From: Candidatus Hydrogenedentota bacterium
Lineage (GTDB): Bacteria > UBA8481 > J006
Length of the DNA stretch: 64,000 nt
Assembly (NCBI GenBank): GCA_003697085.1
Contig: RFFU01000094.1
Coordinates: 21,552 to 85,551, forward strand
Reading direction: 5' to 3'
Each line of letters begins with the position of its first letter. Within the stretch, counting starts at the first letter, position 1. Positions 3,386-56,733 of this stretch are shown in pieces. Below the pieces are notes generated by a model. The model was not told the DNA's origin and searched no databases. It was given only the letters and a program-made list of their open reading frames with translations. Position numbers and translations under genes: made by a program.

Positions 3386-4262
3386 AACAGAGAAAAGTCT
3401 AACAGGAGCCTCAACACGGAACCACGGTAGAAATACAAGGATAGGGGCAAGGACGAAGAAAAAGGCAAAAGTCAAAAGGAAAAAGGCAAAACGGAAAAGG
3501 GAAAAGGGAACGGAAGATTTGGAGCGGAAACTCTCCAGTCTGCGAATTGCCGATCCGCCCGTGGTGTCATTCCGAGCGAGGCGGCGCGCAGCGACGCCGA
3601 CGAGGAATCCCCCAAGATTGCTGACAACCGCCTCGTTCTCCCTCGCCCCTCGGGGGAGAGGGTTGGGGTGAGGGGGGCGCTTTGGAACCACGGCGGGATA
3701 CCGCGAGAAGGGGTTTCCTCGCTAGCGCTCGGAATGACAACGCGGACGGCGATCCACCCCACAGGTTCGAGAACCTGCGCTCGATTTTCGCCGTGTTATG
3801 GAGCGCAGACTCTTCAGTCTGCGTTTGGCTGATCCGCCCCTCCGGGGTGTCACTCCGAGGAGGGTGGAGCCCGACGAGGAATCCCCCACAAATGCCCCCG
3901 GGTGCATGGCAAATTGTGGGCAGGGTCAAGTTCGGCAGACAGCCCTTTCTGGGAGCGCAGGCATCTTGCCTGCCAAAACGGGCTCTTAGAAGGTTACCTT
4001 TCGGTCTCCCCGATCATATTCGGGGTTTCGCCCAGGAGCGGACCGATAGGATTCGGCAAAAGGTGCTCATTTTCGCCGTGACACAACGGAGATTTTTCCG
4101 TTGAATGGGGGCAGGACGATGTATATTTTTTGCGGTTGGGGATAAGGCACGAGGGAAGTGGGAAGCGAGGAAATGGATGTCAGACCATCGTGAAACGAGG
4201 GAAGGTATTGTGCCGAAACGTGGCGAAGAAATCGTGTTGCACGTTATTCGGCGTTTTTCCGT
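3386..4262. other. Long non-coding region with dispersed repeats
   Basis: No gene is supported in this 0.9-kb stretch. It holds a purine-rich AAGGCAAAAGTCAAAAGG tract (about 3460-3510), a composite repeat module (3507-3823), a second GACGAGGAATCCCCCACAAATG-type copy (about 3866-3897), a GCAGGCA-tct-TGCCTGC hairpin (about 3958-3974) and a CAACGGA-gatttt-TCCGTTG hairpin (4084-4103). It separates the divergent ketosynthase and SGNH hydrolase genes, so promoters for both should lie here, but I cannot point to a clear one. Confidence 0.6.
3507..3823 (+). repeat. Composite intergenic repeat module, copy 1
   Basis: In order: a decayed hairpin copy (about 3520-3544), a GTGGTGTCATTCCGAG block, GACGAGGAATCCCCC, an inserted CCCTCGCCCCTCGGGGGAGAG-type segment, an ACAGGTT-cgag-AACCTGCG hairpin, and the hairpin CGCAGACT-cttc-AGTCTGCG at 3804-3823 preceded by ATGGAG. 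The same blocks occur in the same order, in reverse orientation and without the insert, at 56552-56733. Confidence 0.75.
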
Positions 4263-5267
4263 GTGAAGGAATTTCGGGCGCGGGAAGTCATTATCGGACT
4301 CGCGCTCGGATTTTTGTGCTCGGTTGTTCTTGCCGAGGTATATCTGCGTCTTCAAGTTTCTCAAGACAATTACCATTTCCGAAATTACATACGTGAGGTG
4401 GAAACTCGTCGCAAGTATGGTCTGAAGCCCGGAACGTATCCGGGCAACATAACGATTCTTCCGGAAGGCATTCGTGGACCGCGTTCCCTATCCGATACCG
4501 CCGAATTCACGATCGCTTGGATGGGAAACAGCGTTGTATTTGGCGCCGGTGTTCCCGATTCGTTCACCTTGCCCCACCTTTTGGAGACTTCTCTCCGAGA
4601 GCAGTTTCCCTCTATCGTCGTATGGAACCTCGGCATTCCCTCATATTCCAGCACCCAGGTTCGCGCCTATCTCGAGGAGATACTCGATTCCCACACTTTC
4701 CAATTACTGATCATTACCGTGGGAGGAAATGACCTGTCACTTGCCTCTCAATTCGGCAATGAATTCGATTCCTCTTCAAACTGGCGCGACATCCGTTTTC
4801 GAAAAGAAATAGTCCGAAATCAGAAAATCCATTCCGAACTGGCTGTTCGGCTACAAGACTTCTTTTCAAAAAAAGAAGTTCCTTTCTTCCGAACCAACCC
4901 TGAACGAGCCCTCCAACGTGCCTGGCCCGTGATCCGGAACAACCTCTTCGCAATTGCCTCTTTATGCCATAAGAAGAATATTCGTCTCGTCCTGACCACC
5001 TATTATCTCAAAGACAGTTTTACCGCGTCAGACGATAGTCATACGCGGTGGGGGAACACGGTTCGCGAAATGAGCTCCCGCTTTATGCAATTCGGAAAAG
5101 AACAGGGAATTCTCGTATTTGATGTAGCACGGGTTATCGCGAAATCTCCTCACCCCAACTCCTTTTATATCGATAACGTCCACTATTCGCCAAGAGGCGC
5201 GAAAATGCTATCAAAACAGTTGGCAATTTTTTTGCGAAAAAGATTCCTTGGTTCTTACAAAAATTGA
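4263..5267 (+). CDS. Membrane-anchored SGNH/GDSL-type hydrolase
   Basis: This 334-residue protein has one N-terminal membrane segment (about residues 9-28) and then an SGNH hydrolase domain. Block I is MGNSVVFGAGV, with the nucleophile serine in GNS; block II is NLGIPSYSS; block III is GGND; block V is DNVHYSPRGAKML, with the catalytic Asp and His. Such enzymes remove or transfer acyl groups on glycans or lipids outside the cytoplasmic membrane; the substrate is unknown. It starts with GTG and no Shine-Dalgarno site is visible. Codon use is clearly AT-richer than in the surrounding genes, and the gene sits alone beside repeat-rich DNA, which suggests later acquisition. Confidence 0.75.
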   Translation: MKEFRAREVIIGLALGFLCSVVLAEVYLRLQVSQDNYHFRNYIREVETRRKYGLKPGTYPGNITILPEGIRGPRSLSDTAEFTIAWMGNSVVFGAGVPDSFTLPHLLETSLREQFPSIVVWNLGIPSYSSTQVRAYLEEILDSHTFQLLIITVGGNDLSLASQFGNEFDSSSNWRDIRFRKEIVRNQKIHSELAVRLQDFFSKKEVPFFRTNPERALQRAWPVIRNNLFAIASLCHKKNIRLVLTTYYLKDSFTASDDSHTRWGNTVREMSSRFMQFGKEQGILVFDVARVIAKSPHPNSFYIDNVHYSPRGAKMLSKQLAIFLRKRFLGSYKN

Positions 5268-5453
5268 TTTCATCAACGGAATTCGCGGGTGAATTGCGGG
5301 GCTGTGAGACCTCCGAGGAATCCCCCACAAATGCTGGCGGCGCCCTCGGAGGAATACGGGGAGGAGATACGGGTTTCTTCTTGGCAGAGCCTGGACCCCG
5401 GACGCAACGGCGAGTCCGTAGAAGGAAGAGGTGAGTCCAAGGGTGAAGAAAAA

Positions 5454-8400
5454 CTATATCGCCAACGTTGGGATCAGGATCAGTGTCGCGAAGAGAGAGG
5501 TTGTCAGTCCGCCGATGACGGTTATAGCGAACGGTTGAAAGATGTGAGAGCCTGTGTGAAGCGCCAGTGCAGCCGGAATCAACGCACCGATGGTGGTCAG
5601 CGATGTGAGCAGGATCGGGCGCAAGCGGATCGAGACGGCTTCCTTGAAGGCGTTGATGCGGAGTGTACGATCCAGGCCCCCGGCGGCGTTGCCGTGCTGC
5701 ATTTCAAGGCGGACGAGACTTCGATCGGCGAAATCGAGGAGAACGATGGCGTTGTTGACCGCAACCCCCACGAGGGTGATTACGCCCAAGGCGACGGAGA
5801 CGTCGAGGGCCTGATTGAAGAGGCGGAGGGCCACGACGGCTCCGGTCAATGCTGTCGGAACAGTGACCAAAATTAGAATCGGCCGCATACCGGAACCGGT
5901 CTGAAGCACCAGGATGAAGTAGATCAAGAGAATTGCACCGGCGAGAAGAAGAACCAGGTCGAGCGCGGAACGCATAAGAACCTTGTACTGTCCGCTGATG
6001 GAGATACTGTATCCGCTGGGAAGGGACAGTGTCCGAAAACTCTTCTTCAGGTGCGCCGCCACACTCGGAATATTTCCCTCGACCTCCGCAATCAGAGTCA
6101 ATTCCCTTTGACCATTCAAGCGGTGAAGAGCGGAAGGGGTCTTACGGCGGGAGATACTGGCAACCGCGCTCAACGGTACGAGCGTTCCCTGGTAGGTTCC
6201 AATGGGAAGATTCACGAGATCCGAACCGGCCGTCGCGGAGTTATGATCAAGCGTCACGATAACGGAGACCGTCTCTCGAGGTTTAATGATCGATGTGGCG
6301 ACGAGATCTTGATGCGCGGCCTTGAGAGTCTGAAAGACATCTTCCGGCTCGAGGTGAAAGCGTTCCAATTTCGCCGGATCGATGCGCACATCGACCTGCG
6401 ACGCCTTGAATTTCGTGTTGTTGACGATATTGGAGATGGCCGGATCGGCTGCCATGATCTTCTCGACCTGTCCCGCGATTTTCTCCAGTTCCTCCTCGTC
6501 GTCGCCGTAGATCGTGACGCCGAACACGGCGGGGAGACCGGAAAAACTCTCGTCCATCTTCTCCTGTGTCGGCTGATGGTAAACGAGAACAGCGCCCTCC
6601 AGTCCATCGAATGACTTGCGCAATGTCCGGATGACGTCATCCGCCGATCTCCGCCGGAGTGTTCTCTTTTTGAGTTTTATCAAAATCTCGCCGAGATTGA
6701 CGCCTTCGATCTGGAAACCTCCCTCGGGAGATCCGCTCATCCGAAAAACGCAGGCGACAGCGGGATCGGAAAGGACGGTTTTTACCAGTTCCGCGCCGAG
6801 CCGATTGCTTTGGGTCAAAGATGTTCCCGGAGGAAGAGTGTACTCGACAAGAATGCCGCCTTCGTCAATTGGTGGAAGAACCGCCACGTTCATTCCGAGA
6901 CTGCAAAGAACACCGGCGACGCCCCCGAGAGCGGCCGCTCCAACGACGACCTTCCGGTGATCGAAACAGAAGTCGAGCAGGGATAACAAGGGTTCTTGGA
7001 GAAGTCGCAAAACGTGTTCCCCGGCTCGCGACTCTCTCGGGAGGCGCTGGGCCACGGGCAAGCGGCAGAAGAGAATGGGAACGAGGGTCAGGGAAAAGAG
7101 AAGGGAAATCATCAATGCGGAGCTGATCGTGACTCCGAAGGGTTTGAGGAAGAGCCCGAAGATGCCGGTGATGAAGACAAGAGGGAGAAAGGCCGCGGCT
7201 GTTGTCACGGTGCCGGCCGTGTCCGCCGCGGCAATCTCAACCGTGCCCCTCCAGGCTGCGTCGATCGGGGAGAGTCCCTTCGAGGAATGACGGTGGATAT
7301 TCTCTGCAACGACGATCGTGTCGTCGACGATCATTCCAATGGACAGTACCAGAGCGCTCATCGTGATGACGTTAAAACTCAGTCCAAAAAATCGCATAAT
7401 GACGATGGTGCCCAGCAGTGTTAAGGGAATCGTGATGACGACGATCAGGGTCGGCCGGAATGCCCCGAGGAAGAAGGCGAGAACAGCGATGGCGATCCCG
7501 GCGCCGAGAACCATATCTTCGAGAATCTCGTGCTGGGACTCGTGGACGATTTCGGATTGGTCGTAGTACTTCTGAACAATTGTACCATGAGGGAAAAGAG
7601 ATCTATTTTCCGAGAGAAATTTGTCGACCGCGGCGACGACGTCCGTGGTATTCGCGCTTGGTTGTTTGCGGACCAGAAGCGCCACGGCCGGGTGCCCGTT
7701 CCCCGTCACGGTGTAGTGTTTCGGACGAACCCCCTCCGAAAGAGTAGCGACGGCGGAAAGGGGAACCGAGGTTCCATCTCGATCGGACAAGGCGAGGTGT
7801 TTCAGGTCCTCGATCGTTCGAATGCGTCCCTCCGCGCGAATTCTGTATTCCCGTCCGGCGTCCTCGTAATAGCCCGCGGATTCGAGAGAATTGTATTTTT
7901 GCAAGGTCCGGACGAGATTAGGAATCGATAGTCGCGCCGCATCCAACGCCTCAGGACGGACCCGAACGAAGAAGGCTCTCTCCTCACCGCCGATCACATC
8001 GACGGAGGCCACACCCGGAACCTCGTTGATGCGCCCCGCGATCTTGTAACGGACGAGATTCGTTAGGGCAACCGGGTCGTCAACGCCGTAAACGACGTAA
8101 TCACAGACTTCCTGAAGCGTGGTCCCGATGTTTTCCAGGCGGGGCGTGGCGCCCTGCGGGAGAAGAGAGCGGAGGCGTGCGAGCCGCGCCTGAACAATCA
8201 TCCACGCATCCTGAACCCGTGTTCCCCACGCAAACTGAATGGTGACGCGCGAGATCCCTTCAGCGGAGACGCTGGAGACGCGCTGGACCCCGGGAATGCT
8301 TTGCATCTGACTCTCGATCGGCCGCGAGACGAGAAATTCAATATTCTCGGCCGATGCTCCGGGCAAATGAGTAATGATATTGACGAGAGGAACATTGAGG

Positions 8401-8519
8401 TCGGGAAAGAGGCCGACCGGCATCTGGTCCGCCGATCCAATTCCAGCCAATGTCAGCGCAAGCATCAGAATCAAGACGACGATCGGCCGCCTTCCCATTG
8501 TTTGGAGAAAATCACGCAT
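5454..8519 (-). CDS. RND-superfamily efflux permease (AcrB/MexF-like)
   Basis: This 1021-residue protein has the RND layout: TM1, a large periplasmic loop, TM2-6, a second loop and TM8-12. TM4 carries GMIVDDTIVVAENI, whose paired aspartates are the proton-relay residues of hydrophobe/amphiphile exporters, and TM11 carries VGVAVNNAIVLLDF. The double Asp argues against the heavy-metal CusA branch, although the N-terminal loop (PGASAENIEFLVSRPIE) is generic. The gene is last in a tolC-mfp-permease operon, 20 nt after the membrane fusion protein. It would form the inner-membrane pump of a tripartite exporter. The substrate is unknown and no local regulator is encoded. Confidence 0.88.
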   Translation of the reverse strand: MRDFLQTMGRRPIVVLILMLALTLAGIGSADQMPVGLFPDLNVPLVNIITHLPGASAENIEFLVSRPIESQMQSIPGVQRVSSVSAEGISRVTIQFAWGTRVQDAWMIVQARLARLRSLLPQGATPRLENIGTTLQEVCDYVVYGVDDPVALTNLVRYKIAGRINEVPGVASVDVIGGEERAFFVRVRPEALDAARLSIPNLVRTLQKYNSLESAGYYEDAGREYRIRAEGRIRTIEDLKHLALSDRDGTSVPLSAVATLSEGVRPKHYTVTGNGHPAVALLVRKQPSANTTDVVAAVDKFLSENRSLFPHGTIVQKYYDQSEIVHESQHEILEDMVLGAGIAIAVLAFFLGAFRPTLIVVITIPLTLLGTIVIMRFFGLSFNVITMSALVLSIGMIVDDTIVVAENIHRHSSKGLSPIDAAWRGTVEIAAADTAGTVTTAAAFLPLVFITGIFGLFLKPFGVTISSALMISLLFSLTLVPILFCRLPVAQRLPRESRAGEHVLRLLQEPLLSLLDFCFDHRKVVVGAAALGGVAGVLCSLGMNVAVLPPIDEGGILVEYTLPPGTSLTQSNRLGAELVKTVLSDPAVACVFRMSGSPEGGFQIEGVNLGEILIKLKKRTLRRRSADDVIRTLRKSFDGLEGAVLVYHQPTQEKMDESFSGLPAVFGVTIYGDDEEELEKIAGQVEKIMAADPAISNIVNNTKFKASQVDVRIDPAKLERFHLEPEDVFQTLKAAHQDLVATSIIKPRETVSVIVTLDHNSATAGSDLVNLPIGTYQGTLVPLSAVASISRRKTPSALHRLNGQRELTLIAEVEGNIPSVAAHLKKSFRTLSLPSGYSISISGQYKVLMRSALDLVLLLAGAILLIYFILVLQTGSGMRPILILVTVPTALTGAVVALRLFNQALDVSVALGVITLVGVAVNNAIVLLDFADRSLVRLEMQHGNAAGGLDRTLRINAFKEAVSIRLRPILLTSLTTIGALIPAALALHTGSHIFQPFAITVIGGLTTSLFATLILIPTLAI

Positions 8520-8539
8520 CAGACGAATGGAATTCGCAT

Positions 8540-9643
8540 TCAGTCGGAGACCTTGAATGTCCGACTGAAATCGCGGTGAAAGAGTTCGTAGGCACCGTGT
8601 ACGACGATCTCATCGGAGGGATCGACGCCGCCAATCACTTCGATGAGATCCCCGTCGGCTTCCCCGAGGGATACGGAAATTTTTTCAAATCCATTCTCGG
8701 TTTTCCGAAAGAGAAAAGGCATGCCCTTCTCGTCTTTTACGATCGCGGTTCTTGGAACGGCCGGAGAATTCTTATGACGTCCAACGATGATCGAACCGGA
8801 GACGAAGGCGCCGGGGGAGAAGAATTTCGAGAGCGAGTCACCATCGATCCAGACCTGCGTCGCACCACCGGCCGAACGGCGAGGAAGGACTCTGATAACC
8901 CGCGCGCTGATTTCAAACGCTTTGCCGGGGACGCGACAGGTCGCCTTCTTTCCAAGGAAAACGTCTCCAGACGGTGAAAATACCGTCGCGAGGATACGAA
9001 TTCCGCGCGAATCAATGATGTCGGCAAGATGGGCCCCTGTGTTCACGAATTGCCCCCGAGAGACGGTTCGACTCGTGAAGATACCTGAGACAGGGGCGGG
9101 GACGGAGGCGGCGTCGTCGAGCAGTGACAATTCCTGCTGCGTCCGAGAGAGTTCCAGCCGCAAGCGATTGAGGTTGTCAAGTGCGGCAAGGGCCTCTCTG
9201 CGCGAGACCAGTTTCTCCTTCAAAGCTTCTCGATATTTCCCCGCATCCGCTTCCGCGATCGAAATCTGCCGCCCAAGGAATTCCTGTTTTTCCTCCAGGA
9301 CCTTCCGTCGGGTGATCAGTTGAGTTCCACCGATGAGAAAGAGCGATTCTCCCGCGCGGACACGCCTTTCATCCGGAACGCGTTGCGCGAGAATCTCGCC
9401 GTCCACCCGCGCCGTTATCTCGATCCGATTGGTCGCCACAACCTTGCCATACCAAGGGATCCGAACGGAAAAATTATGGCGCGAGGGACGCGCCGTTTCG
9501 ATGAGAACGGGGGAATCAAGAGTGACCCGTGATCGAGTGTTGCGACGGGAGTACGCGGCAAAGAAAAGGAGCCCAAGTGCGATGAGAGCGAAGAGCAACA
9601 GAATACCGAGGCGGCGGGAAGATGGTTTTCTCCGATCCTTCAA
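8540..9643 (-). CDS. RND efflux periplasmic adaptor (membrane fusion protein)
   Basis: This 367-residue HlyD/AcrA-family adaptor has an N-terminal membrane anchor (about residues 10-30), a biotinyl-lipoyl half-motif (ARVDGEILAQRVPDERRVRAGESLF), a coiled-coil hairpin (about 110-175), the second lipoyl half (PAPVSGIFTSRTVSRGQFV) and beta-barrel and membrane-proximal domains. It bridges the permease to the TolC-type channel. It starts with TTG at 9643, overlapping the TolC stop as TTGA, with a GGAG sequence upstream; the anchor directly after this codon supports the choice. Confidence 0.88.
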   Translation of the reverse strand: MKDRRKPSSRRLGILLLFALIALGLLFFAAYSRRNTRSRVTLDSPVLIETARPSRHNFSVRIPWYGKVVATNRIEITARVDGEILAQRVPDERRVRAGESLFLIGGTQLITRRKVLEEKQEFLGRQISIAEADAGKYREALKEKLVSRREALAALDNLNRLRLELSRTQQELSLLDDAASVPAPVSGIFTSRTVSRGQFVNTGAHLADIIDSRGIRILATVFSPSGDVFLGKKATCRVPGKAFEISARVIRVLPRRSAGGATQVWIDGDSLSKFFSPGAFVSGSIIVGRHKNSPAVPRTAIVKDEKGMPFLFRKTENGFEKISVSLGEADGDLIEVIGGVDPSDEIVVHGAYELFHRDFSRTFKVSD

Positions 9644-11019
9644 CGCTCGTGGCTCCGGTCCGCCGGGATCGTCCCGATCAGTGTTCGTCCTGACGAAATC
9701 TCCAACGCAATGACGAGATCGGCCAAGCGGCCTTGGAGGGAACGCTTTTCCAATTGTTTCTTCAATAGGCGAGAGACCGTCTTGTAGTAATCGAAGATGT
9801 CGGTTCGACCGTCGTCAGCGGCTTTTTTCGCCCAACGTTTCTGAAGCAGGAGGTTATCGATTTCCGTATTCACGGTTTCTATTTTCGCCCGAACGGCGGC
9901 GATTTCATTCAAAATCTTTCCGATCTCGGAGCGCGCATCAAAGAGCCGAGCGTTGTATTCATCGAAGAGTTGTTTTCTGGTGGCTCGTTCCCGGGCGATC
10001 TCACCCTGATTCTGGTTGAAGAGCGGCAGTGTGATTGAAATCTCCGCCCCGTTCGTCTTGACGGAGTCGATATCCCGCGCGGTGAGGAAGCCGATATTAA
10101 TCCTGGGAAACTGCCTCAGGATTGCTCTGCGAACTTTCTCCTCCTGACTTTCATATCCGCGGCGAAGAGCGAGCAGATCGAGGCGCCGTGTTTCGAGATT
10201 TTTTGTCAGTTCGGATTCATCGGGAAGCCCCCTCGGCGGTGCAAAGACAACACCCGTTTCCGGTTTGAGTTTCATTTCAGGGGGGACGCCGAGGGCGCGA
10301 TTGAGCGCGAGGCGTTCCCGTTCGATATGGTATCGATTTTGTTCGAGAGAATCGCGTGCGCGGAGAAGACGATTTCTTTCCGCCGCCAAGGTTGATCTGT
10401 CCGCAAGGCCGAGTTCAACCACCCGCCGTTCCGCCGCGTATTCCTCACGAACGTTCCTTAACAGTTCCTCCCAGAGAGGGCGTTGAGATTGCGAGAGGAC
10501 CAGACGATACAGATGAAGTTTGGCCGCCTCCGCCGTCTGCCATTCACTCCAGGCGATGTCGAGATCAACGGATGCCGCGTGCTTCTTTTCCGAACGGATC
10601 GTCCCGTTGCGGGAAAGAAGCGATGTGATATTCCAATTCACACCGTACGAAACGGCGTTCTCCTTTTCGCCGGCGTTTCGTCCACGCGGCGATTCGAAAC
10701 CGTAGGAGAAGGTCGGGTTGGGAAGGAGGCCGGCCTGAAGAACCTGCGCGGCCGCCCGGCCGCGTTCATCCCGTAGGGCTTTCAAATGAGGATTAACGAT
10801 GACCGCCATTACGGCGGCCTCCTCCGGAGAGAGCCCGTTGCGATAATCGACAATGAGAGGAGGCAAAAGAGGATGACTGATGGAATCGGAAAGAATCCGA
10901 ATCGCTTCGGCGTCCGGCACGAAATCCGTATTCTTCAGAGGAAGTGGATGATAGGAAGCGCAAGCACCGATCAGACAAATGGACAGCAGAGTTGTTCCTT
11001 GTTGAAGAAACCGGAGCAT
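9640..11019 (-). CDS. TolC-family outer-membrane efflux lipoprotein
   Basis: This is an outer-membrane factor of 459 residues. The signal peptide ends in a lipobox (LIGAC), so the mature protein should be lipidated at Cys19. Two repeated halves follow, each rich in long amphipathic helices (EERRVVELGLADRSTLAAERNRLL and ERATRKQLFDEYNARLFDARSE regions), as in OprM/CusC. The open frame extends 31 codons further upstream, but the ATG at 11019 puts the lipoprotein signal at the start, so I prefer it. It is first in the efflux operon and overlaps the adaptor gene. Confidence 0.85.
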   Translation of the reverse strand: MLRFLQQGTTLLSICLIGACASYHPLPLKNTDFVPDAEAIRILSDSISHPLLPPLIVDYRNGLSPEEAAVMAVIVNPHLKALRDERGRAAAQVLQAGLLPNPTFSYGFESPRGRNAGEKENAVSYGVNWNITSLLSRNGTIRSEKKHAASVDLDIAWSEWQTAEAAKLHLYRLVLSQSQRPLWEELLRNVREEYAAERRVVELGLADRSTLAAERNRLLRARDSLEQNRYHIERERLALNRALGVPPEMKLKPETGVVFAPPRGLPDESELTKNLETRRLDLLALRRGYESQEEKVRRAILRQFPRINIGFLTARDIDSVKTNGAEISITLPLFNQNQGEIARERATRKQLFDEYNARLFDARSEIGKILNEIAAVRAKIETVNTEIDNLLLQKRWAKKAADDGRTDIFDYYKTVSRLLKKQLEKRSLQGRLADLVIALEISSGRTLIGTIPADRSHER

Positions 11020-11184
11020 AATGATGGCATAATCGGAATCCCGCGGATTGTCCAGCAAAGGAATTGTTCTCCGTGGGAAAGGTACTTGGTGAGCCATCTC
11101 TGTAAAGAACAATTACCAACCGATTCCCACCCGCGAATTTTGCTGCGGAACCCCCAATTTTTTCTCAAAAACGAGGTAAATCTG

Positions 11185-11967
11185 ATGTATAATCACATCA
11201 GGCGAGAACGGAGGGAACGCGGGGGCGGGGAGGGAAGAGCAGAAGCGAGAGAGCGGATGTCGGGAACGTCTTCGAACGTGTTGAAAGAAAAGCCTGGTGA
11301 CGTGCGGCAGCGCGCGGAACGGAGAGAATGGCGAAGGGACAAGGAACGACCGTCTTCCCAGAGCAGCCGCCTGGTTGGAATTTTGACGCGTTATCGGGTA
11401 CCGGCCGCGTTTTTTCTGGTCCTTTTTCTTTTCGCGAAAGACCTCCTTTCCGGAACTCGCCCGCTTGATCTCGATGCGTTTGTTACCGGAAAATTTCCGT
11501 GGACGGGAAGTGTGGCGGTTTTGGTGATCCTCAGTGGGATCTTGTTTCGGGCTTGGGCCGCGGGGACGATCGAAAAGAGCCGGAAGGTCTGTCGTAAGGG
11601 ACCCTACGCCGTCGTACGGCATCCGCTTTATCTCGGGTCGCTTCTCATTGCCCTCGGGTTTTGCGCGGCGCTCAACAGTGTCGAGAATATCTTCGCGGTT
11701 TTGCTTTTCGTCGTGGTCTTTTATGTGCCAAAAGTGCGTCAGGAAGAAAAGGAGTTGTTGGAGAAGTTTGGAGAGGATTACGCGCGGTATATGGCCGAAG
11801 TCCCCGCCCTGTTTCCTTATCGAATTCCGAGAAGAATCGCGGGAGAATGGTCTTGGAGACGTTATTGGCGCCATCGGGAATGGCGGCTGGCGGTCACCTC
11901 GATTACGGCGTTGATACTTTTGGAACTGCTCTCGGAACGGGTCATTTCCTTTTCAATGTTTCCCTGA
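11185..11967 (+). CDS. Isoprenylcysteine carboxyl methyltransferase-like membrane protein (ICMT/PEMT family)
   Basis: The C-terminal half of this integral membrane protein carries the family signature RKGPYAVVRHPLYLGSLL, then a hydrophobic hairpin, then EEKELLEKFGEDYARYM. This is the SAM-binding module of Ste14-like/PEMT-like methyltransferases, usually annotated only as isoprenylcysteine methyltransferase family; the substrate is unknown. About 80 basic, low-complexity residues precede the first membrane segment. The start is uncertain: ATG 11185 has GAGGT 8 nt upstream, but a perfect TATAAT at 11188-11193 would instead favour ATG 11257. Confidence 0.7.
   Translation: MYNHIRRERRERGGGEGRAEARERMSGTSSNVLKEKPGDVRQRAERREWRRDKERPSSQSSRLVGILTRYRVPAAFFLVLFLFAKDLLSGTRPLDLDAFVTGKFPWTGSVAVLVILSGILFRAWAAGTIEKSRKVCRKGPYAVVRHPLYLGSLLIALGFCAALNSVENIFAVLLFVVVFYVPKVRQEEKELLEKFGEDYARYMAEVPALFPYRIPRRIAGEWSWRRYWRHREWRLAVTSITALILLELLSERVISFSMFP
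11188..11193 (+). promoter_or_regulatory. Candidate -10 box TATAAT before the ICMT-like gene
   Basis: A perfect TATAAT lies 64 nt before ATG 11257. No good -35 hexamer is found at 16-18 nt. It overlaps the first codons of the longer version of the gene, so either it is fortuitous or the shorter start is used. Confidence 0.4.
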
Positions 11968-47552: not shown

Positions 47553-47560
47553 CCGCACCT

Positions 47561-49138
47561 ATGATCGACTATCGTTTCGAGAAGGAGCCGTTCGGTGTCG
47601 CGCCTGATCCGGGAATGGTCTTTCGCCACAGCGGCTTCGCGGACGCCTTTGAAGCGCTCGAAGAGGGGATTCACCGAGGGAAAGGATTTCTTGTCATTAC
47701 CGGCGATGTCGGATCCGGAAAGACAACCTTGATGCGTTCCTTCCTCTCCCGCGACGATTCCCGGCTCGTCACCGCCGCCGTGCTCAATACGGGACTCGGT
47801 CCCGACGATCTCCTCTCGACGATCGCTGAGGACCTGGGACTCTCCGTTCCCCCCGCGGCGACACGAAAGGATCTCATCAATCTCCTCTACGACCATCTCC
47901 TCAAGACCTTCGCCTCGGGCAAACAGACCGCCGTCTTCATTGATGAAGCCCAGAATCTTTCGCTGGAATCCCTCGAGGTCGTCCGAATGCTTTCGAACCT
48001 CGAGACGGAAACAGACAAGCTTCTCCAGATCGTCCTCTTCGGACAGAACGAACTCCGTGTTCGGCTTGCCGAGCCCGAGCTGGTGCAACTCCGGAGTCGA
48101 ATCGCCGTTCATCGCCATCTTACGCCGCTTTCGTTGGAAGAGACGACCGAGTATGTCCGCCATCGGCTCGCCGCCGCCAACCCCGCCATTCCCGTTTCCT
48201 TCGATCACAACGCTCTCAAACGTATGTATCGCCTCACCGGCGGCCTTCCCCGCCGGATCAACATTCTCGCCGGCGTAGTGCTTAAAAAGGCCGCGGAATC
48301 GGAGAGTGAGATCGTCACCGAGCAGCACGTACGGGCAGCGGAGGAGGAATTCGCCTCGCTCGATGAGATCGGCGCGGAGGAACGTCCCGAAACCGGTGGG
48401 ATGCCGTGGTCTACAATCGGGGCCTGGTTCGTTCTGATCATCGCTCTTGTTTCGCTCACCGTGCTTCGGTTCCGGAGGATGCGGGAGGAATCGCCTCCGC
48501 CCGAACTTCCCGTCTCGAGTGCTGTCCGCGCTCCCTCTTCCGTACTTCCGGCATCGCGGGAGGAAGCGCCTTCCCCCGAGCGGCTTCCCCTTTTGGCCTT
48601 TTTCCGTGCGAACGCCGAGTCTTTTCCGTTCGATCCCGGTATCCTTGAAATCGCTCGGCCGGAAGCCGTGGCCCGTTCCTTGCACCTCCGCTGGCGAGCA
48701 ATCCAGACGACCGCCGCGGAACTCCGCGCCATTCGTCTCCCCGCTCTTGTCAGGCTTCGCGCACTTCCTCCCGATCAATTTGCATTATTGGAGCCGGTCC
48801 AAGGAGCCGATTCCGAGTCCGTTCTCGTAACTACGGCCGAACGTTCCTCCAGGCTCCCTTGGGAACTCGTCGATCTCGCCCCCGGAACCACTGCCGTCCT
48901 TCTCCTTCCGGAAACGATGCCGGAACGATTGCTTGAATTCGGCATGACCTCGGACTCCGTCCTTCACCTTCAGGAAGCACTCGTCCGCTTTGGAAATTTT
49001 TCCGTGACGCCGAACGGCCATTTCGGTCCGACGACGCTGGCAGCGGTGCGTGATTTCCAGGCGCAGGTCGGATTGACCGAGGACGGAGTCGTTGGCCCGC
49101 GTACGCTGGGAGCGCTTCTCTCTCGAGGCCTCTGGTAG
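47561..49138 (+). CDS. ExeA/GspA-like AAA ATPase with C-terminal peptidoglycan-binding domain
   Basis: The 525-residue protein has an N-terminal ATPase ([23 protein letters not shown]; Walker [12 protein letters not shown]; Walker [12 protein letters not shown]; sensor [17 protein letters not shown]), one membrane helix (about 288-305), a Pro-rich linker, and an outward part ending in a PG_binding_1 domain ([11 protein letters not shown]...[34 protein letters not shown]). This is the GspA/ExeA architecture, which places secretion or export complexes in the cell wall. Relatives occur in exosortase/EPS clusters; no exosortase is seen here. It has its own promoter. Confidence 0.85.
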
Positions 49139-49367
49139 TTTCCCTCCGAAAAAAAGACTCCCGCTTCCCCGCTCTCCTCTGTCATTTAAGACCAACAAGG
49201 AGGTCATTTTTGATCGGTCCGGAGATCGGTTATCGTGGAACCTTATGAATTTCAAGATGGCACGGCCATTGCTATTCTCTCGATACGTTCGAAGCGCACC
49301 GTTTTGTCGAGAAGGGACTTTCCCCCATCGAGAAGACGGAGAAATCAAATCAAATGGGAGGGTCGCT

Positions 49368-50780
49368 ATGACACCTAAGGAAGTAACGGCGTTCATCAAG
49401 GAAAAGGGCATTCGGTCCGTGGATTTTAAATTCTTGGATCTACCGGGTCTGTGGCAGCATTTTTCGATTCCCGCGACGGAATTCTCCGAAGAGATATTCG
49501 AGGAAGGCGTGGGATTCGACGGATCGTCGATCCGCGGTTGGAGGGTGATCAATGAATCGGATATGCTCGTGATTCCCGATCCGGAGACCGCCTTTGTCGA
49601 TCCCTTTTACAAGAATCCGACGCTTTCATTCATCTGCAACATCGCTGTTCCACAGACGAGGGAGCCGTATGACCGGGATCCTCGCACGATTGCGCGGAAG
49701 GCGGTCGAATATCTCAAAACGACCGGCATCGGAGACACAGCCTACTTCGGCCCGGAAGCGGAATTCTTCATCTTCGACGACATTCGTTACGAGCAGAATC
49801 AGCACTGCGGGTACTATTTCATCGATTCGGTCGAAGGGCGTTGGAACTCCGGCCGCGAGGAGAATCCGAATCTCGGGTACAAACCCCGGTACAAGGAAGG
49901 CTATTTCCCCTGCCCTCCGATGGATAAGTTCCAGGATCTTCGGGACGAGATGGTCCAGGTAATGGAGCAGTTGGGGATTCGGGTCGAGTGCCAGCATCAC
50001 GAGGTGGCCACCGCGGGACAGGCCGAGATCGATATCCGATTCGAACCGCTCGTCAAGCAGGCCGACAACCTCTATCTCTACAAGTACGTCATCAAGAACG
50101 TCGCGGCGCGCAACGGCAAGACGGCGACTTTCATGCCGAAGCCGCTCTTCCTCGACAATGGAAGCGGAATGCATACCCATGTGTCGCTGTGGAAGGGGGA
50201 CAAGAATCTCTTCGCCGGTGACGGCTATGCCGGGCTTTCGGAGACGGCCCTGTATTTCATCGGCGGACTGCTCAAGCACGCGGCAAGTGTCATCGCTTTC
50301 ACCAATCCGACGACCAACTCCTATAAGCGTCTCGTGCCGGGCTTCGAAGCCCCGGTCAACCTCGCGTACAGCCAATCGAACCGTTCCGCCGCCGTCCGCA
50401 TTCCGATGTATTCCCAGAGCCCGAAGGCGAAGCGGATCGAGTTCCGGTGTCCCGACCCGTCCTGCAACGCCTACTTCGCCTTCACGGCGATGCTTCTGGC
50501 CGGACTGGACGGAATCGAAAATCGAATCGACCCCGGGGAGCCGTTGGACAAGAACATCTATGATCTCTCTCCGGAGGAGAAGAAAGGCGTCCCCTCGACG
50601 CCGGGGAGTCTCGAGGAAGCGCTCGACGCCCTCGAAAAGGATCACGACTTCCTTCTGAAGGGAGACGTCTTTTCCGAAGATGTGTTGCAAGCATGGATCA
50701 ATTACAAGCGGAACGAGGAAGTGGATGCATTGCGGACGCGACCTCATCCCCACGAATTCGAGATGTATTACGACATTTAG
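49368..50780 (+). CDS. glnA: Glutamine synthetase, type I
   Basis: GlnA makes glutamine from glutamate, ammonia and ATP. The 470-residue protein shows [40 protein letters not shown], the ammonia/metal region [29 protein letters not shown], and [18 protein letters not shown] carries the tyrosine adenylylated in GSI-beta enzymes, so AMP-type control is likely. ATG 49368 has GGGAGG 7 nt upstream. It is monocistronic, with a strong terminator after it. No P-II gene is adjacent. Confidence 0.96.
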
Positions 50781-50842
50781 TACGACATCTCCCCCAAACC
50801 GACGCGATCCTCCGGAAGTTTTCTTCCGAGGCGCTTCGATCG

Positions 50843-50879
50843 CGGGAGTCCCGGGTTGCGGGGCTCCCGTTTGTTTTTT
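50843..50879 (+). terminator. Rho-independent terminator of glnA
   Basis: An 11-bp stem (5' arm from 50843 CGGGAG.CCCG, 3' arm to 50869) with one G-T wobble and a five-base loop is followed by TTTGTTTTTT. Confidence 0.88.
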
Positions 50880-51007
50880 CTCGAGCCCGCCGCCACCGGA
50901 AAGGATACGCAGAAAGGACGCGCTCGGAAGAATACGGTGAACGAATACCTCTGGCTGATACGAATCCGCTATCGCGGCGACAAAAACCTTCCCGCCGGCA
51001 CGATTTA

Positions 51008-51016
51008 TGCTAAAAT
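51008..51016 (+). promoter_or_regulatory. Extended -10 promoter box TGC-TAAAAT
   Basis: TAAAAT preceded by TGC, about 118 nt before ATG 51134. The -35 region (TTCCCG at 16-nt spacing) is weak. Confidence 0.4.
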
Positions 51017-51133
51017 TCTTGGAAGACGGGCTTCCGGAAATTGCTCCGAACGACCGAATACTCGGAGCAACCTTCCCGGAAGCCGTCGAGAGAAAAAAAT
51101 CAGGAGGAATCCCTGGAAAGGACGGGTGGTGGT

Positions 51134-51763
51134 ATGATCTTCGGACGAAGAAAGCGGTTCACCGGTGGGGTGGTTTTGGCACTGGTTCTTGTGGTCTTGG
51201 TGGGCACGAGCGGTTGCACGGAACAGGAACAGAGCACGACCACGGGCGCTTTGATCGGAGCCGGACTCGGCGCGGTCATCGGAAATCAGTCTGGGAAAGC
51301 CGTCGAGGGAGCGCTGATCGGAGCGGCTGTCGGTGGTGCTATTGGTTATATTGTCGGAGAATCGCGGACCCAGAGGATTGCCTCGGCGGACCAGACCTAT
51401 TCTCAGCAAGGATACCGTGCCGTCGAAGGACTCCAGATCAAGATCACCGAGGCTTCGGTTTCACCGACCGTGGCTCGCCCGGGGGACGACGTCGATCTCA
51501 ACTCGACCGTCGCGGTCATGGGCCCGGGTTCCGATCCGGTCAAGGTACGCCAACGGATCGCCATCTATAAAGGGCAGGAGTTGGTCGGAGACATTATCGA
51601 AGATCAGTTTGACCTCGAACCGGGAACACACAGGATCTCGAGGCGCATCACGCTTCAGAAGGATTTTCCGGCGGGACGTTATCTTTACGTGACCCACGTG
51701 AAAGCGTATTCTGGGGATGACGTTTCCGAATCCTCCCGGGAGGTTCCCTTCTCGGTCGGCTGA
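51134..51763 (+). CDS. Glycine-zipper lipoprotein
   Basis: This 209-residue lipoprotein has a signal peptide with lipobox TSGC, then a glycine-zipper hairpin (GALIGAGLGAVIGNQSGKAVEGALIGAAVGGAIGYIVG, about residues 37-75), as in the OmpA-like/17-kDa antigen group of outer-membrane lipoproteins. The C-terminal domain is beta-rich (VDLNSTVAVMG, VRQRIAIYKGQELVGDI, FPAGRYLYVTHVKAYSGD), resembling an Ig-like fold. Function unknown; the zipper suggests oligomerisation in the membrane. Confidence 0.8.
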   Translation: MIFGRRKRFTGGVVLALVLVVLVGTSGCTEQEQSTTTGALIGAGLGAVIGNQSGKAVEGALIGAAVGGAIGYIVGESRTQRIASADQTYSQQGYRAVEGLQIKITEASVSPTVARPGDDVDLNSTVAVMGPGSDPVKVRQRIAIYKGQELVGDIIEDQFDLEPGTHRISRRITLQKDFPAGRYLYVTHVKAYSGDDVSESSREVPFSVG

Positions 51764-51881
51764 TCAAGCGTCCGCCGGGCCGTTACAGACAAATCGATTA
51801 TAAGTTCTTTCGGGCGGACCGTCCTGAGATACGGCCTTGGACGGAGAGAGGGGTGGGATGCGTGGGAGAGGGGGGCCTCGT

Positions 51882-52721
51882 CTAGGGACGGGGAAAGCCG
51901 TCCCAGACCTCGACTCCCTCGCGTTGCGGCGGGCGCGCCTGGCCGGGACGCCGCATCTGGACGATGCGAGCCTCCGGCCACCGTTTTCGATAGACCTCGA
52001 TATTGCGCATCGAATCGTCGAACGCCGCCACGACCGTGCCGAGCCGCTCGATGAACCCGGCCGCCTCGTTCTTGAACGGCGCCGCCGGAGCCTTCGGTTT
52101 CGGTTTCATGATCAACATCGTCCGTTCGACTCCGATCGGAAAACCCAGATGCTCCAGTTCCCCCGCCGTTCCCGAAAACATACTGGGTTTGTCCCGGCCT
52201 GTGAGATAGACGATCATCGCCCCGGATTTCCACAACCGATTCACGAAGGCAACCGCTCCCGGGATCGCCGTGTCGAATCTGAGAAATCGATTCGAGAAGA
52301 ACCTGTCAGCCCAGAATTTCAGGGCATGTTCGAGAACGAACAGGTTCGAGATACCGCAGTCCTGAAAGGTATCAACGAGATGGTACTGAACGGAATCCGC
52401 GCGAAGGTTGCGAATCCTCGGAGCGACATCGGGATATGCGTTCCCTTTCTCTTCGACAAACTTCTTCAGAATGGCGCAAGTTCGGGGGCGATTATCCACA
52501 AGCGTTCCCTCAATATCGAAGACAACGATCGGAACCCGTCCCTCGGCCATCACTTTTCCGAAGCTCTTTTTCCAGAAGTCCGCTCGGGAAGAGTCCTCCG
52601 CCGAGATCACCGCGGCAAGGTTTCCGATTCCTCCCAACAAGAATACGACCCCGAGTACCAGAGCGCGGTGGAGGCCGCGCCGGGGAAATCTGTAACTTTC
52701 GTTGTTCCTCATTCTCCTCAT
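51882..52721 (-). CDS. Exported HAD-superfamily-like protein
   Basis: The 279-residue protein has a signal peptide or anchor (about 18-42), then a HAD fold: motif I VVFDIEGTLVD, motif II VYLTGR, and motif IV AAFDDS. In motif I the second acid is Glu rather than the usual Asp (DxD), so standard phosphatase chemistry may be altered. Such exported HAD proteins resemble class B/C acid phosphatases or DUF2608-type proteins. A TATAAT lies 3 nt before the first ATG; ATG 52712 is an alternative start. It is divergent from the mqnC-like gene. Confidence 0.7.
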   Translation of the reverse strand: MRRMRNNESYRFPRRGLHRALVLGVVFLLGGIGNLAAVISAEDSSRADFWKKSFGKVMAEGRVPIVVFDIEGTLVDNRPRTCAILKKFVEEKGNAYPDVAPRIRNLRADSVQYHLVDTFQDCGISNLFVLEHALKFWADRFFSNRFLRFDTAIPGAVAFVNRLWKSGAMIVYLTGRDKPSMFSGTAGELEHLGFPIGVERTMLIMKPKPKAPAAPFKNEAAGFIERLGTVVAAFDDSMRNIEVYRKRWPEARIVQMRRPGQARPPQREGVEVWDGFPRP

Positions 52722-52786
52722 CTCATTATATCATCGGCCGGGAAACTCTGTTGTAAAAAGTCTTTTTCCGAAAGGACGGAAACGAA

Positions 52787-53890
52787 ATGGTTGACCGAGT
52801 CCGCCGCCTGTCTTCAAGCGAGGCTCTTGCTCTCTGGCGCAAGGCCGACACGACCGAATTGAAGGCGCGCGCGCGCGCGGTGCGCAATCGATTCCATAGT
52901 CCGAAAACGGCCACTTATACGATTATGCGGATCGTCAATTTTACGAATGTCTGTGTCGCCCAATGTGACTACTGCGCTTTCTACGTTCTTCCCGGGCACC
53001 CCGGCGGGTACGTCCTCGGCCTCGACGAGATCTTCTCCCGTATCGACGAACTCCTTTCTCTCGGCGGCGACCTGCTGGGTTTCAACGGCGGTTTCAACCC
53101 CGATCTTACCCTCGATTTCTATTGCGATACTTTTCGTGAAATCCGCCGGCGTTATGGAGAATGGATCGAATTCTACGCGTTGACGGTCGCGGAGTTCCTC
53201 TATCTCGCCGACCGCGCGCGGCTCACGTACGACGAATGTGCCCGGCGGCTCCGCGACGCTGGAGTGCTTTGGATCACCGGGGGAGGGGCGGAGATACTAA
53301 CCGAGGACTTCCGCCTTCGCCACAGTCGGCTCAAATATTCCGTCGAGGAATTCTTCGAGGCCCAGCGCGCGCTGATCCGGAACGGCCTCCGCACGACCGC
53401 GACGATGGTCATCGGTTTCGACGAATCCCTCGAGGAACGAATCGAACATCTGGAACGCATCCGTGATTTTCAGGACGAGGTCGGCGGTGCGCTTTACAGT
53501 TTCCTCGTCTGGACCTACAAGCCGCTCCATACCGCTCTGGGGGGAAGAGAGATCTCGGACGAGGAATATCTTCGACACGTCGCACTGTGTCGAGCGTTTC
53601 TCGATAATATTCGTCACATCCGCGTTTCTGTTTTGACGCGCAACGAAACGGCGCTGCGGGCGCTCGATTACGGTGCCGACGATTTCGACCTTCCGATCGA
53701 GGACGAAGTGACGGAGAAAGCCGGGGCCGTCATCGAGAAGGATCTCGAATCTCTCCTTTCCCGTGTTCGGAAACTTGGCTATTCTCCCGTATATCGCCGC
53801 ACGCCACGTTGCCCTCGTTCGCAGGACTGTGATTCGTCTTCCGAAGGGAGTGCGCGAACGGTCTCAAGGAAAGGAGTCGGAGTCGAATGA
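52787..53890 (+). CDS. MqnC/CofH-like radical SAM enzyme
   Basis: The 367-residue protein belongs to the radical SAM group of MqnC (futalosine menaquinone pathway), MqnE and CofG/CofH. It shows VNFTNVCVAQCDYCAFYVLPGHPGGYVL with the CxxxCxxC cluster, LLGFNGGFNPDLTLDFY, and GVLWITGGGAEIL. MqnC (cyclic dehypoxanthinyl futalosine synthase) is the best match by these blocks; CofH/MqnE cannot be excluded and no other men/mqn gene is in the window. ATG 52787 has AAAGGA about 10 nt upstream. Its stop overlaps the OmpA-family gene by four bases. Confidence 0.78.
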   Translation: MVDRVRRLSSSEALALWRKADTTELKARARAVRNRFHSPKTATYTIMRIVNFTNVCVAQCDYCAFYVLPGHPGGYVLGLDEIFSRIDELLSLGGDLLGFNGGFNPDLTLDFYCDTFREIRRRYGEWIEFYALTVAEFLYLADRARLTYDECARRLRDAGVLWITGGGAEILTEDFRLRHSRLKYSVEEFFEAQRALIRNGLRTTATMVIGFDESLEERIEHLERIRDFQDEVGGALYSFLVWTYKPLHTALGGREISDEEYLRHVALCRAFLDNIRHIRVSVLTRNETALRALDYGADDFDLPIEDEVTEKAGAVIEKDLESLLSRVRKLGYSPVYRRTPRCPRSQDCDSSSEGSARTVSRKGVGVE

Positions 53891-55215
53891 GAAATTCCCC
53901 GAGGCATCTTCTCCCGATTCTTTTCCTGATTCTCCCTCATCCCTTCCTTTCCGGCGCCGCCCCGGCCGGCGCGTTGACTCTTCGGGAAGCGACTTTCCGC
54001 GAGGTTGCCCGCATCGAAAAACGGCGGGGTGACGCCCAGGGGGCGCAATTCCTTGAGAAACTCGGCCAAAAACCTCCTGCGCTTCCTCCGGATATTTCGG
54101 TTTCTTACCCGGACCGCTATCGGAACTTGGTTCAAACCTACCGCCTTGCGCGACGTCGTCTCGCCTTCGGCCGTACCCGACCGGACGCCGCACGGTACGA
54201 TGACCGTCTCACGCGAGCCGAAGCCTTTCTCTTTCTGGCGCACTATGAACTGGAGCAGGGAAACCGGGGAGTCTTGAGCGTTATCCGTCGGGCCTTGCGA
54301 GAAGCGGAAAAGGCCTTCGGTGAGGAAGTTCCGGAACCAACGAGAAATTATCGGGTTCCCTCCGATGCTAGCGCCTCTAAAAAACGCTCTCTCTCCCCGC
54401 CGAAAATCGCGGTCACCGCTTCACCCCTCGAACCGCACTTTGGTGAATCCGTCGAGATTTCCTGGACGGTAACGAACGCCAAAACACTCCTTCTCGACGG
54501 AACCGCGGTGCCCCTCTCGGGAAAGAAAACGTTCCTTGCCAAACAAAGACGAGACTTTCGTTTCGAGGCGACCGGTCCGGGGGGAAAGGCCCGGCGACTC
54601 TTCACGGTCAATGTTCTTCCTCGAAAGATCGAACGCTATCCGGCCGCAAGCCTCTTGGCGATTCCGCCCGAGATCATCGAGGAAGAATGTGCGGAACTAC
54701 GCTGGATGGTTTTCGATGCGGATGAGATTTTCCTCGATGGAACACCGGTCGATTCCTTCGGTAGCAGAAGCGTCTGCCCCGAGACGACCACCCGCTACCG
54801 AATCGTGGCCCGCCGCGGTGATGATCGCGCGTTCGCCGCCGTGACCGTCACGGTCCTGCCTCGCGGCTCAAACCCTTGGAGAATCTTCTTCGATTACGAC
54901 GACGACCGGATCCGCGAGGACGCGCTCGATACACTCGTCCAAGTCGCGCGATACCTGCGGATTCACCCGGAACGACGCTTGACGATCGTGGGCCATACCG
55001 ATTCGCGCGGAACGCGCGAATACAACCTCGCTCTTGGAGAACGCCGGGCGCGCGCCGTGAGAAATTACTTCGTTCACGTCTTCGGTATCCATCCGCGCCG
55101 CTTCGTCATTCGTTCGAAGGGTGAGGATGATCCTATCGCTCCCAATACACTTCCGGATGGACGAGACAATCCCGCGGGAAGACGGATGAACCGGAGGGTG
55201 GAGTTTGTCCGTTAG
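53887..55215 (+). CDS. OmpA-family C-terminal domain protein with two Ig-like domains
   Basis: This 442-residue exported protein has a signal peptide (to about residue 28), a helical N-terminal domain (about 30-155), two beta-sandwich domains (about 170-255 and 260-335, each with a LDGT pattern), and an OmpA C-terminal peptidoglycan-binding domain (FDYDDDRIREDALDTL; IVGHTDSRGTREYNLALGERRARAVR). This end should bind the cell wall as Pal does, but no lipobox is present. It is co-translated with the mqnC-like gene (ATGA) and overlaps the next TolB-like gene by 11 bp. Confidence 0.85.
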   Translation: MRNSPRHLLPILFLILPHPFLSGAAPAGALTLREATFREVARIEKRRGDAQGAQFLEKLGQKPPALPPDISVSYPDRYRNLVQTYRLARRRLAFGRTRPDAARYDDRLTRAEAFLFLAHYELEQGNRGVLSVIRRALREAEKAFGEEVPEPTRNYRVPSDASASKKRSLSPPKIAVTASPLEPHFGESVEISWTVTNAKTLLLDGTAVPLSGKKTFLAKQRRDFRFEATGPGGKARRLFTVNVLPRKIERYPAASLLAIPPEIIEEECAELRWMVFDADEIFLDGTPVDSFGSRSVCPETTTRYRIVARRGDDRAFAAVTVTVLPRGSNPWRIFFDYDDDRIREDALDTLVQVARYLRIHPERRLTIVGHTDSRGTREYNLALGERRARAVRNYFVHVFGIHPRRFVIRSKGEDDPIAPNTLPDGRDNPAGRRMNRRVEFVR

Positions 55216-56323
55216 TCTTCATCAATCCAGGAAGAAGCGGAAAGGAGGAACCCGAAATCTCGGCTCCGGCTCGGGCGGGAAGAGGAACGTATTTTGCGCT
55301 CGCCGTGTTCGCGACTTTCGACGGCGCCGAACTTCCCTTTCGGAAGCCTGCTTCCTTCTCGCTTTCGTCCTTTCGACTGTCTTTTCTTCGATCGCTCATT
55401 CGGCCCCCGCGCCGCCGAGTTCCCCCGAGGGGGCCGCGGCCCTGCCGGATGGCTTTCGGATCTCTTCAGCCCTACCGGCACGCTTCGCCTTCGTTATGGA
55501 GAACTCACTCTGGATCGCCGATCCCGCCGATGGTTCGCTGGAACGTATCGAGGGCGAAGACTGGACCAGTCCCGGTTCCCCGACCTTTCTCTCTCCCCGA
55601 GGGGATCGGATCCTCTTCGGCGCTTATCGGCGCCGTCGGTATCCGCCTCATCCCGGTACAATTGACATCTCCGTCTCGAATCTCTACGAGTATCGCAATG
55701 GAAAGGTCTTTCCCTTGACGGATCGGAACGACCTTAACCTTTCTCCTGATTTCTGCCGCGCCACCGGTGCAATCGTTTTCGTCTCGAACCGCCATTCGCA
55801 TCTGCGGAAACTCTTTCCGCGTTACAACACGATCGAACTCTATTACCGCGAAAAGAAATGGCATGCGGCTCGGAAATTCACAGAATCCGGCGGGACGAAG
55901 TTCAATCCTCGATGGTCACCCGACGGAACGCACGTGCTCTTCCTCTGGTACACGCCCGAAACGGCCGGACTCTATCTCCTCGATACGCGGAATGGAAAGG
56001 TTCGAAGGATTTCGGAAACCGGAGACTATGCGACGTGGAGCCCCGATGGTGCCCGGATCGCTTTCGTTCATCAAGGCGAAATTTTTGTTGTCCCGGTCGG
56101 GAAGAACTGTCGTACGCGAGGGACTCCCCGCCTCTTGCTCGGGACTGACCGGCTTCCCGGTTACGCTTCTTTCACCCGGTGGACCGATTACGGTCTACTT
56201 TTCCAGTGGGCGGCGTCCGGCCGAAGCGGGATATCGCTTTACAATTCGAAAAAAGACTTGATCACTGAACTTGTTTCCGCCGATGCCGTCTTCGGCGGCA
56301 GTGATCTCGCGCCGCTATTTTGA
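55205..56323 (+). CDS. TolB-like PD40 beta-propeller exported protein
   Basis: The 372-residue protein has a very basic N-terminus and a signal peptide near residues 45-68, then PD40-type propeller blades (FNPRWSPDGTHVLFLW, YATWSPDGARIAFVHQGEIFVV, FLSPRGDRILFGAY). TolB is the best-known relative; it lacks the separate TolB N-terminal domain. It starts with TTG inside the end of the OmpA-family gene; no better start is available. The pairing of a cell-wall-binding OmpA protein with a TolB-like propeller recalls Pal-TolB. Confidence 0.72.
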   Translation: MSVSLHQSRKKRKGGTRNLGSGSGGKRNVFCARRVRDFRRRRTSLSEACFLLAFVLSTVFSSIAHSAPAPPSSPEGAAALPDGFRISSALPARFAFVMENSLWIADPADGSLERIEGEDWTSPGSPTFLSPRGDRILFGAYRRRRYPPHPGTIDISVSNLYEYRNGKVFPLTDRNDLNLSPDFCRATGAIVFVSNRHSHLRKLFPRYNTIELYYREKKWHAARKFTESGGTKFNPRWSPDGTHVLFLWYTPETAGLYLLDTRNGKVRRISETGDYATWSPDGARIAFVHQGEIFVVPVGKNCRTRGTPRLLLGTDRLPGYASFTRWTDYGLLFQWAASGRSGISLYNSKKDLITELVSADAVFGGSDLAPLF

Positions 56324-56411
56324 CTCGAAAGGATGAACGGTAAACGATGAACGAACACTACCTTCTAGTTCCCTTTTGCCTTTTGACTTTTGCCTTTCTC
56401 TTTTGCCGTAT

Positions 56412-56485
56412 TTTCCGTGTCTTCCGTGGTTTCTTCCCCTCCGCGTCGTCCGAGTTTTCCGTGTCTTCCGTGGTCCTTTCGTTCA
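56412..56485. repeat. TTCCGTGTCTTCCGTGG low-complexity repeats
   Basis: Two blocks of TTTTCCGTGTCTTCCGTGG are separated by about 30 nt. Related strings occur at about 59125-59250 on the same strand, and the CACGAGAGCACACGAGAG variants near 62850 and 63030 look like relatives. Confidence 0.7.
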
Positions 56486-56551
56486 TCACCGTTTTTCATT
56501 CAACGCTTTTCCTTTTTTGCCGAATTCCTTTCCAATGCCGGCCCGTTCTTT

Positions 56552-56733
56552 CGCAGACAAGAGTGTCTGCGCTCCATAATACGGCAGAAATGGGGCGCAG
56601 GTTCTCCAACCTGCGGAGAGCGAATCGTGCACTCGTGGGGGATTCCTCGTCGGGCTGCGCCCGCCTCGGAATGACACCACGAGCGAATCGGCAATTCGCA
56701 GACTGGAGAGTCTACGCTCCCAATCTTCTGTTC
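56552..56733 (-). repeat. Composite intergenic repeat module, copy 2 (inverted)
   Basis: It contains three hairpins: CGCAGACA-agag-TGTCTGCG (56552-56571), CGCAGGTT-ctcc-AACCTGCG (56596-56615) and CGCAGACT-ggag-AGTCTACG (56697-56716). Between them lie GGGGGATTCCTCGTCGGGC and CCTCGGAATGACACCACGAG. Read on the minus strand, the order matches copy 1 at 3507-3823. Confidence 0.8.

Follow-up and report, generated by a model that had tools for sequence, protein, structure and literature searches.

REP elements, which are mobilized by REP-associated tyrosine transposases (RAYTs), are best known from Proteobacteria. Their published foot reads GTRG (PMC3686654), and foot and loop together are the recognition determinants, with the foot bases A3 and G4 being tied to the CT site at which the RAYT cleaves (PMC8266576). 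REP subfamilies that differ by alternative, complementary stem residues are described in PMC3733652. Here, we analyzed a dispersed family of small hairpins in a 64-kb stretch of DNA (the window) and in the genome from which it derives. These hairpins are very probably REP-type elements that occur either singly or joined into composite dimers and that would be spread in trans by a RAYT. They would thus be a non-autonomous mobile repeat of a known kind with an altered foot, GGAG instead of GTAG.

Eight family copies were found in the window. The hairpins listed in the initial annotation all exist, shifted by no more than one or two bases, and one further copy, a GTT-type unit on the minus strand (3761-3778), had been missed. 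The leftmost copy is a decayed ACT-type unit on the plus strand (3521..3544; GGAG CGGAAACT CTCC AGTCTGCG). Both clusters of the window (3761-3823 and 56552-56615) are inverted heterodimers of a type with 26 bp between the partners. In the first of these, the decayed GTT-type copy with the foot CGAG (minus strand, 3761..3783 including the foot) is the left partner, and an ACT-type copy with the foot GGAG, the loop CTTC and a perfect stem (plus strand, 3800..3823; hairpin 3804-3823) is the right partner, located 26 bp away with the feet of the two facing inwards. The second consists of an ACA-type copy with the foot GGAG and a perfect stem on the left (minus strand, 56552..56575; hairpin 56552-56571) and, 26 bp from it, a perfectly paired GTT-type copy with the foot GGGG on the right (plus strand, 56592..56615; hairpin 56596-56615). 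The remaining copies are a GCA-type copy with a perfect stem (plus strand, 3952..3973; hairpin 3957-3973; GGAGC GCAGGCA TCT TGCCTGC), a slightly decayed ACT-type copy with the foot GGAG (minus strand, 56697..56720; hairpin 56697-56716) and a GCA-type copy (minus strand, 59045..59088; hairpin 59045-59082) in which the palindrome CCTGCCGGCCGGCAGG is inserted between foot region and hairpin. Insertions of the CCTGCCGGCCGGCAGG type also occur in at least two other copies of the genome (L079 and L110). The decayed copies at 3521-3544 and 56697-56716 and the copy with an inserted palindrome at 59045-59082 are as initially described; at 56592, the foot is GGGG rather than GGAG.

Several other features adjoin the hairpins. 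The ACT-type copy at 3521..3544 sits at the 5′ end of a ketoacyl-synthase ORF (2225-3691, minus strand), in an extension that has weak support. The C-terminal half of this ORF corresponds to a ketoacyl synthase; its first 200 residues have no family match and overlap repeats, so that the gene start may be truncated or frameshifted. A second repeat family, GTCATTCCGAG...GAGGAATCCCC, is present at 3560-3620, 3720-3740 and 56636-56680 of the window and at many other loci, often directly 3′ of GTT- or ACT-type hairpins, with 17 spaced matches in 464 kb. Moreover, tandem-like TTCCGTGTCTTCCGTGGT stretches adjoin hairpin clusters (56400-56480 and 59120-59200 in the window; 9 exact 17-mers in 464 kb).

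The genome of the window is represented by a 3.2-Mb assembly of 145 contigs, rated 94.6% complete, and our statistics cover the window together with another 400 kb in longer stretches and some 70 short loci. Four discrete subfamilies can be told apart by their inner cores, which are GTTCTCCAAC, ACTCTCCAGT, ACACTCTTGT and GCATCTTGCC; they comprise the ACT, GTT, ACA and GCA types seen in the window. In the sequence examined, 245 non-redundant copies differ by at most three mismatches from one of the cores (213 of them by at most two); the reversed-sequence control contains none within two mismatches of the four cores. Searched as an exact pattern, CAGRYTCTCCARYCTG occurs 74 times in the genome, compared to 0 in the reversed control and no more than 2 in each of 289 other genomes, and these reversed-sequence controls rule out a chance origin of the hairpins. 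Counts of the pattern GCGCAG...CTGCG in other genomes are swamped by the coding GC background. As had been suggested in the initial annotation, we also built a covariance model, R1, from the CTCY types, which recovered about 130 copies genome-wide at E <= 0.01 among the best 150 candidates scored. Overall, the genome has over 100 close matches to the family. With 53 copies of at most two mismatches in the 464 kb sampled, the genome probably holds roughly 300 copies, an extrapolation which may be high because the stretches came from contigs known to hold copies. GTT cores identical to the consensus number 36, and since many copies still match their consensus, the family was probably active recently. 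The one relative from the same order that was searched (G001) has no copies by either the pattern or the R1 search, and the exact GTT core string had no match in the literature searched. Many hairpin copies are found no more than a few hundred bases from contig ends of the assembly (C28, C40, C75, C86, C88, C103, C110 and C124), which suggests that repeat clusters break the assembly.

Each unit spans 24 nt and consists of an unpaired GGAG or GGGG foot at the 5′ side of an 8-bp stem, closed by a loop of 3-4 nt that reads CTCY or, for GCA-type units, either TCT or TCC. In this genome, the foot was GGRG in 100 paired copies and GTRG in 2, so the published GTRG foot is not that of this family, in contrast to same-class elements in other genomes, where GTRG prevails by 61 to 5. 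A scan for foot and loop that applied no pairing criterion gave a bimodal distribution, with either 0-4 or 6-8 of the 8 pairs formed; the second mode is missing from the control.

Composite elements follow fixed rules of spacing and orientation. In GCA>GTT composites, which point in the same direction, the cores lie 11 bp apart, exactly so in 21 of 32 cases. Where an ACT or ACA unit and a GTT unit are inverted with their feet inwards, 26 bp separate the cores in 11 of 14 pairs. Inverted partners always belong to different subfamilies (37/37): not one homodimer was found among inverted neighbors, compared to a mean of 10.8 upon shuffling of the labels, and none of 20,000 shuffles reached a value that low, although the 37 pairs are not fully independent since each composite is copied as a whole. 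According to Di Nocera 2013 (PMC3733652), REPs generally favor heterodimers, and the authors suggest that SbcCD-type enzymes clear long perfect inverted repeats. The rule observed here may likewise reflect avoidance of long perfect inverted repeats, and would explain why the stems of neighbors differ while each still pairs.

Differences between stems had originally been read as paired changes in independent copies that point to selection on structure. The paired changes are real but mark the four source subfamilies, corresponding to about three to four events. Fully paired 8-bp stems come in three versions in this genome, plus the GCA type, which rules out independent compensatory evolution of each copy, and the covariation of the inner three pairs within the genome reflects the existence of three source stems. 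Inside the subfamilies, we counted 179 stem changes on one side only and 14 on both sides, of which 10 still pair; among the nine of these that form a Watson-Crick pair, eight replace A-T by G-C or C-G at a single stem position, mostly in the GCA type. For the five outer pairs, 49 distinct variants yielded one two-sided change, 18 one-sided wobble changes and 25 broken cells. Changes inside subfamilies thus mostly break pairs, indicating that ordinary copies decay and that structure is kept in the source elements only. Across genomes, both sides vary in six of the eight pairs, and 16 fully paired stems were seen among the genomes sampled. Here, 97.6% of the cells are paired, a share that falls to 73% upon shuffling and to 23-43% when the partners are slid. 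The 97.6% is inflated by preselection of the rows for at least six pairs, which affects the covariation less. Together with the second pairing mode, this covariation indicates that structure is conserved in the mobile lineage and not site by site, while individual copies decay; the original reading is thus supported only in part.

This decay also bears on the idea that the hairpins are transcribed RNA elements, i.e., terminators or mRNA-stability elements selected at each site. The hairpins are indeed stable, GC-rich and mostly located between genes (39 of 49 placed copies lie outside called genes, compared to 23% non-coding in the sampled sequence, with genes called by a simple script rather than a trained gene finder), and one-sided stem changes often yield G-U pairs. 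However, copies decay by pair-breaking changes, a T-rich tail follows none of 213 copies on the plus strand and 8 of 213 on the minus strand, terminator scans returned no member of the hairpin family among their matches, and Rfam gave no match at gathering score within the window. Neither are the 49 placed copies enriched in intervals between convergent genes, a check suggested in the initial annotation. An origin as RNA elements, which had been considered alongside mobile repeats, is thus improbable; single copies may have acquired a secondary RNA use. Binding sites of a host nucleoid protein or regulator that do not move are an even less probable explanation. Short conserved palindromes would suit such sites, and REPs elsewhere do bind host proteins, but the strand asymmetry of the units, with a foot on one side only and a pyrimidine loop, and the recurrence of identical composites amid unrelated flanks argue for copying, and relatives in other phyla flank transposase genes.

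As initially noted, no REP-associated transposase is encoded in the window. The search for one was extended to the assembled genome (94.6% complete) with the RAYT family model NF047646 at its cut-off of 80 bits, and no RAYT over this cut-off and none flanked by the hairpins was found. A single Y1 transposase was found in the assembly, L031, which is also the only RAYT relative; this protein of 347-357 aa scores 48 bits. Inverted repeats, AAGGTGTCATTCTT..., delimit its gene and belong to a dispersed family of their own, unrelated to the hairpins. This terminal repeat is 29 bp long, AAGGTGTCATTCTT(A/C)CA.TTTG.CA.TTT, and has 12 copies in the sequence examined, among them one in the window (58205-58233, minus strand) and others at L031, L076, L079, L084, L086, L087, L089, L106, L121 and L126. 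The arrangement fits the TIRYT/TIRtron described in PMC3733652, in that the gene is flanked by inverted repeats that recur elsewhere in the genome; in contrast, the repeats of L031 have nothing in common with the hairpin family. As the sole Y1 transposase found in the assembly, L031, of the long RAYT-like type flanked by terminal inverted repeats, could be thought to mobilize the hairpins. We consider this unlikely, as the gene is flanked by its own dispersed repeat and not by the hairpin, and as the protein groups in the tree with other long RAYT-like proteins, apart from those RAYTs that have CTC(C)-type REPs at their flanks. Rather, a RAYT that fits the hairpins may have been lost or may lie in the unassembled part of the genome; according to PMC3733652, many E. 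coli strains have lost theirs.

In other genomes, same-class elements do adjoin RAYT-family genes, in four of them in total. Several copies of the 21-nt GTT/ACT hairpin occur in a Holophagales MAG, in WOR-3/Stahlbacteria MAGs and in two Planctomycetota MAGs, where they have GTAG or GTGG feet and the loop CTCC, and other outer stems (GGCCG, GAACAG, CACAG) are found as well; single matches to this hairpin in further records may be due to chance. In the WOR-3 genome G063, the RAYT gene L065 (1357-1851; 97 bits against NF047646) lies between two GTGG CTCC hairpins, and in the Stahlbacteria genome G061 the RAYT gene L067 (100 bits) has hairpins with a CTC loop on both sides. When R1 was run over 241 genomes, G055 and G138, on which the model had not been trained, gave two matches each, all of them adjoining RAYT-family genes (L210 and L218), which are fragments of 63 bits each and thus under the cut-off. 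In a tree of RAYTs, L065, L067, L210 and L218 are placed in the same region, which is moderately supported. A further RAYT of G061, L071 (109.5 bits), lies between REPs of another family that have GGAG feet and a CGT loop; judged from its flanks, a GGAG foot can go with a RAYT. Another Stahlbacteria RAYT, L070, is 72% identical to that of L065 and has the palindrome ATGTCATCCC TGC GGGATGACAT at 1306-1328 and 1954-1976 in direct orientation. This palindrome is an unrelated one, so that closely related RAYTs can have very different flanking repeats. The unrelated genome G191 (L176, L185, L190, L193, L196, L199 and L202) harbors many CTCC/CTCT hairpins of the same class, mostly with GTGG feet, and none of its RAYT-like genes is flanked by them; here too, REPs are present while no cognate RAYT is evident.

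The REP reading, and with it the mobile REP-like element proposed in the initial annotation, therefore rests on anatomy, copy number, subfamilies, the dimer rule, intergenic position and RAYT-flanked relatives elsewhere; mobilization by a RAYT itself is what we infer. The family shows the short palindrome (20-40 bp) with a short loop, the high copy number mainly outside genes, the variable complementary stem, and the dimers and mosaics of set spacing and orientation that characterize REPs. A cognate RAYT over the cut-off and flanked by the repeat was not found in this assembly but is present elsewhere (L065 and L067; as fragments below the cut-off, L210 and L218; for another GGAG family, L071). 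As the foot departs from GTRG and no cognate RAYT was found in the assembly, we class the family as a GGRG-footed REP variant rather than placing it directly within the GTAG superfamily. In the proposed mechanism, a RAYT, a Y1 HUH single-strand nuclease, would act in trans on the hairpins and, by analogy with characterized RAYTs, would recognize the foot and the loop of single-stranded DNA, whereas the stem would matter mainly for its fold. Source lineages could then come to differ by paired substitutions in the stem, with the foot and the loop remaining constant. Amplification of four source subfamilies would have been followed by decay of the copies. Because GGAG keeps A3 and G4, cleavage at CT would be expected to persist. 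A more specific scenario, which we put forward tentatively, is a GGAG-guided RAYT/REP branch in which the second foot position has changed genome-wide, loop and stems have remained like those of GTRG elements in other phyla, a RAYT with a changed guide would have co-adapted and the different-stem rule for inverted partners is strict.

Little-studied phyla thus share this foot-stem-loop grammar, as seen in their MAGs; one genome has a natural variant of the foot, and in others relatives of the hairpins flank RAYT genes. These elements provide natural substrates for testing how the tetranucleotide guide and the loop set RAYT specificity. The apparent covariation, which here stems from a few mobile source lineages and not from selection on each copy, calls for caution when covariation is read as evidence of functional RNAs.

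Among known systems, the GTAG REP superfamily (PMC3733652, PMC2817692, PMC3686654) resembles the family in its 20-25 nt units, in which an unpaired tetranucleotide, G..G, immediately precedes the 8-bp palindrome on the 5′ side. The short loop, the high copy number, complementary-stem subfamilies, heterodimers and RAYT-flanked relatives are shared as well. In contrast to that superfamily, the foot here is GGAG/GGGG instead of GTAG/GTGG, the loop is CTCY, the assembly has no RAYT over the cut-off, and presence in candidate phyla is patchy. The BIMEs of E. coli, built from the REPs y, z1 and z2, are likewise mosaics of REP types with fixed spacing and orientation, but the perfect stems described here lack the bulge that is conserved in REPs of E. 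coli (PMC8266576), and the foot differs. Finally, like REPINs (Bertels and Rainey 2011, PMC3116915), the inverted doublets are copied as units; unlike in REPINs, the commonest stereotyped inverted spacing, 26 bp, goes with a tail-tail arrangement in which the feet face each other, and head-tail GCA>GTT composites with 11 bp between the units account for many copies.
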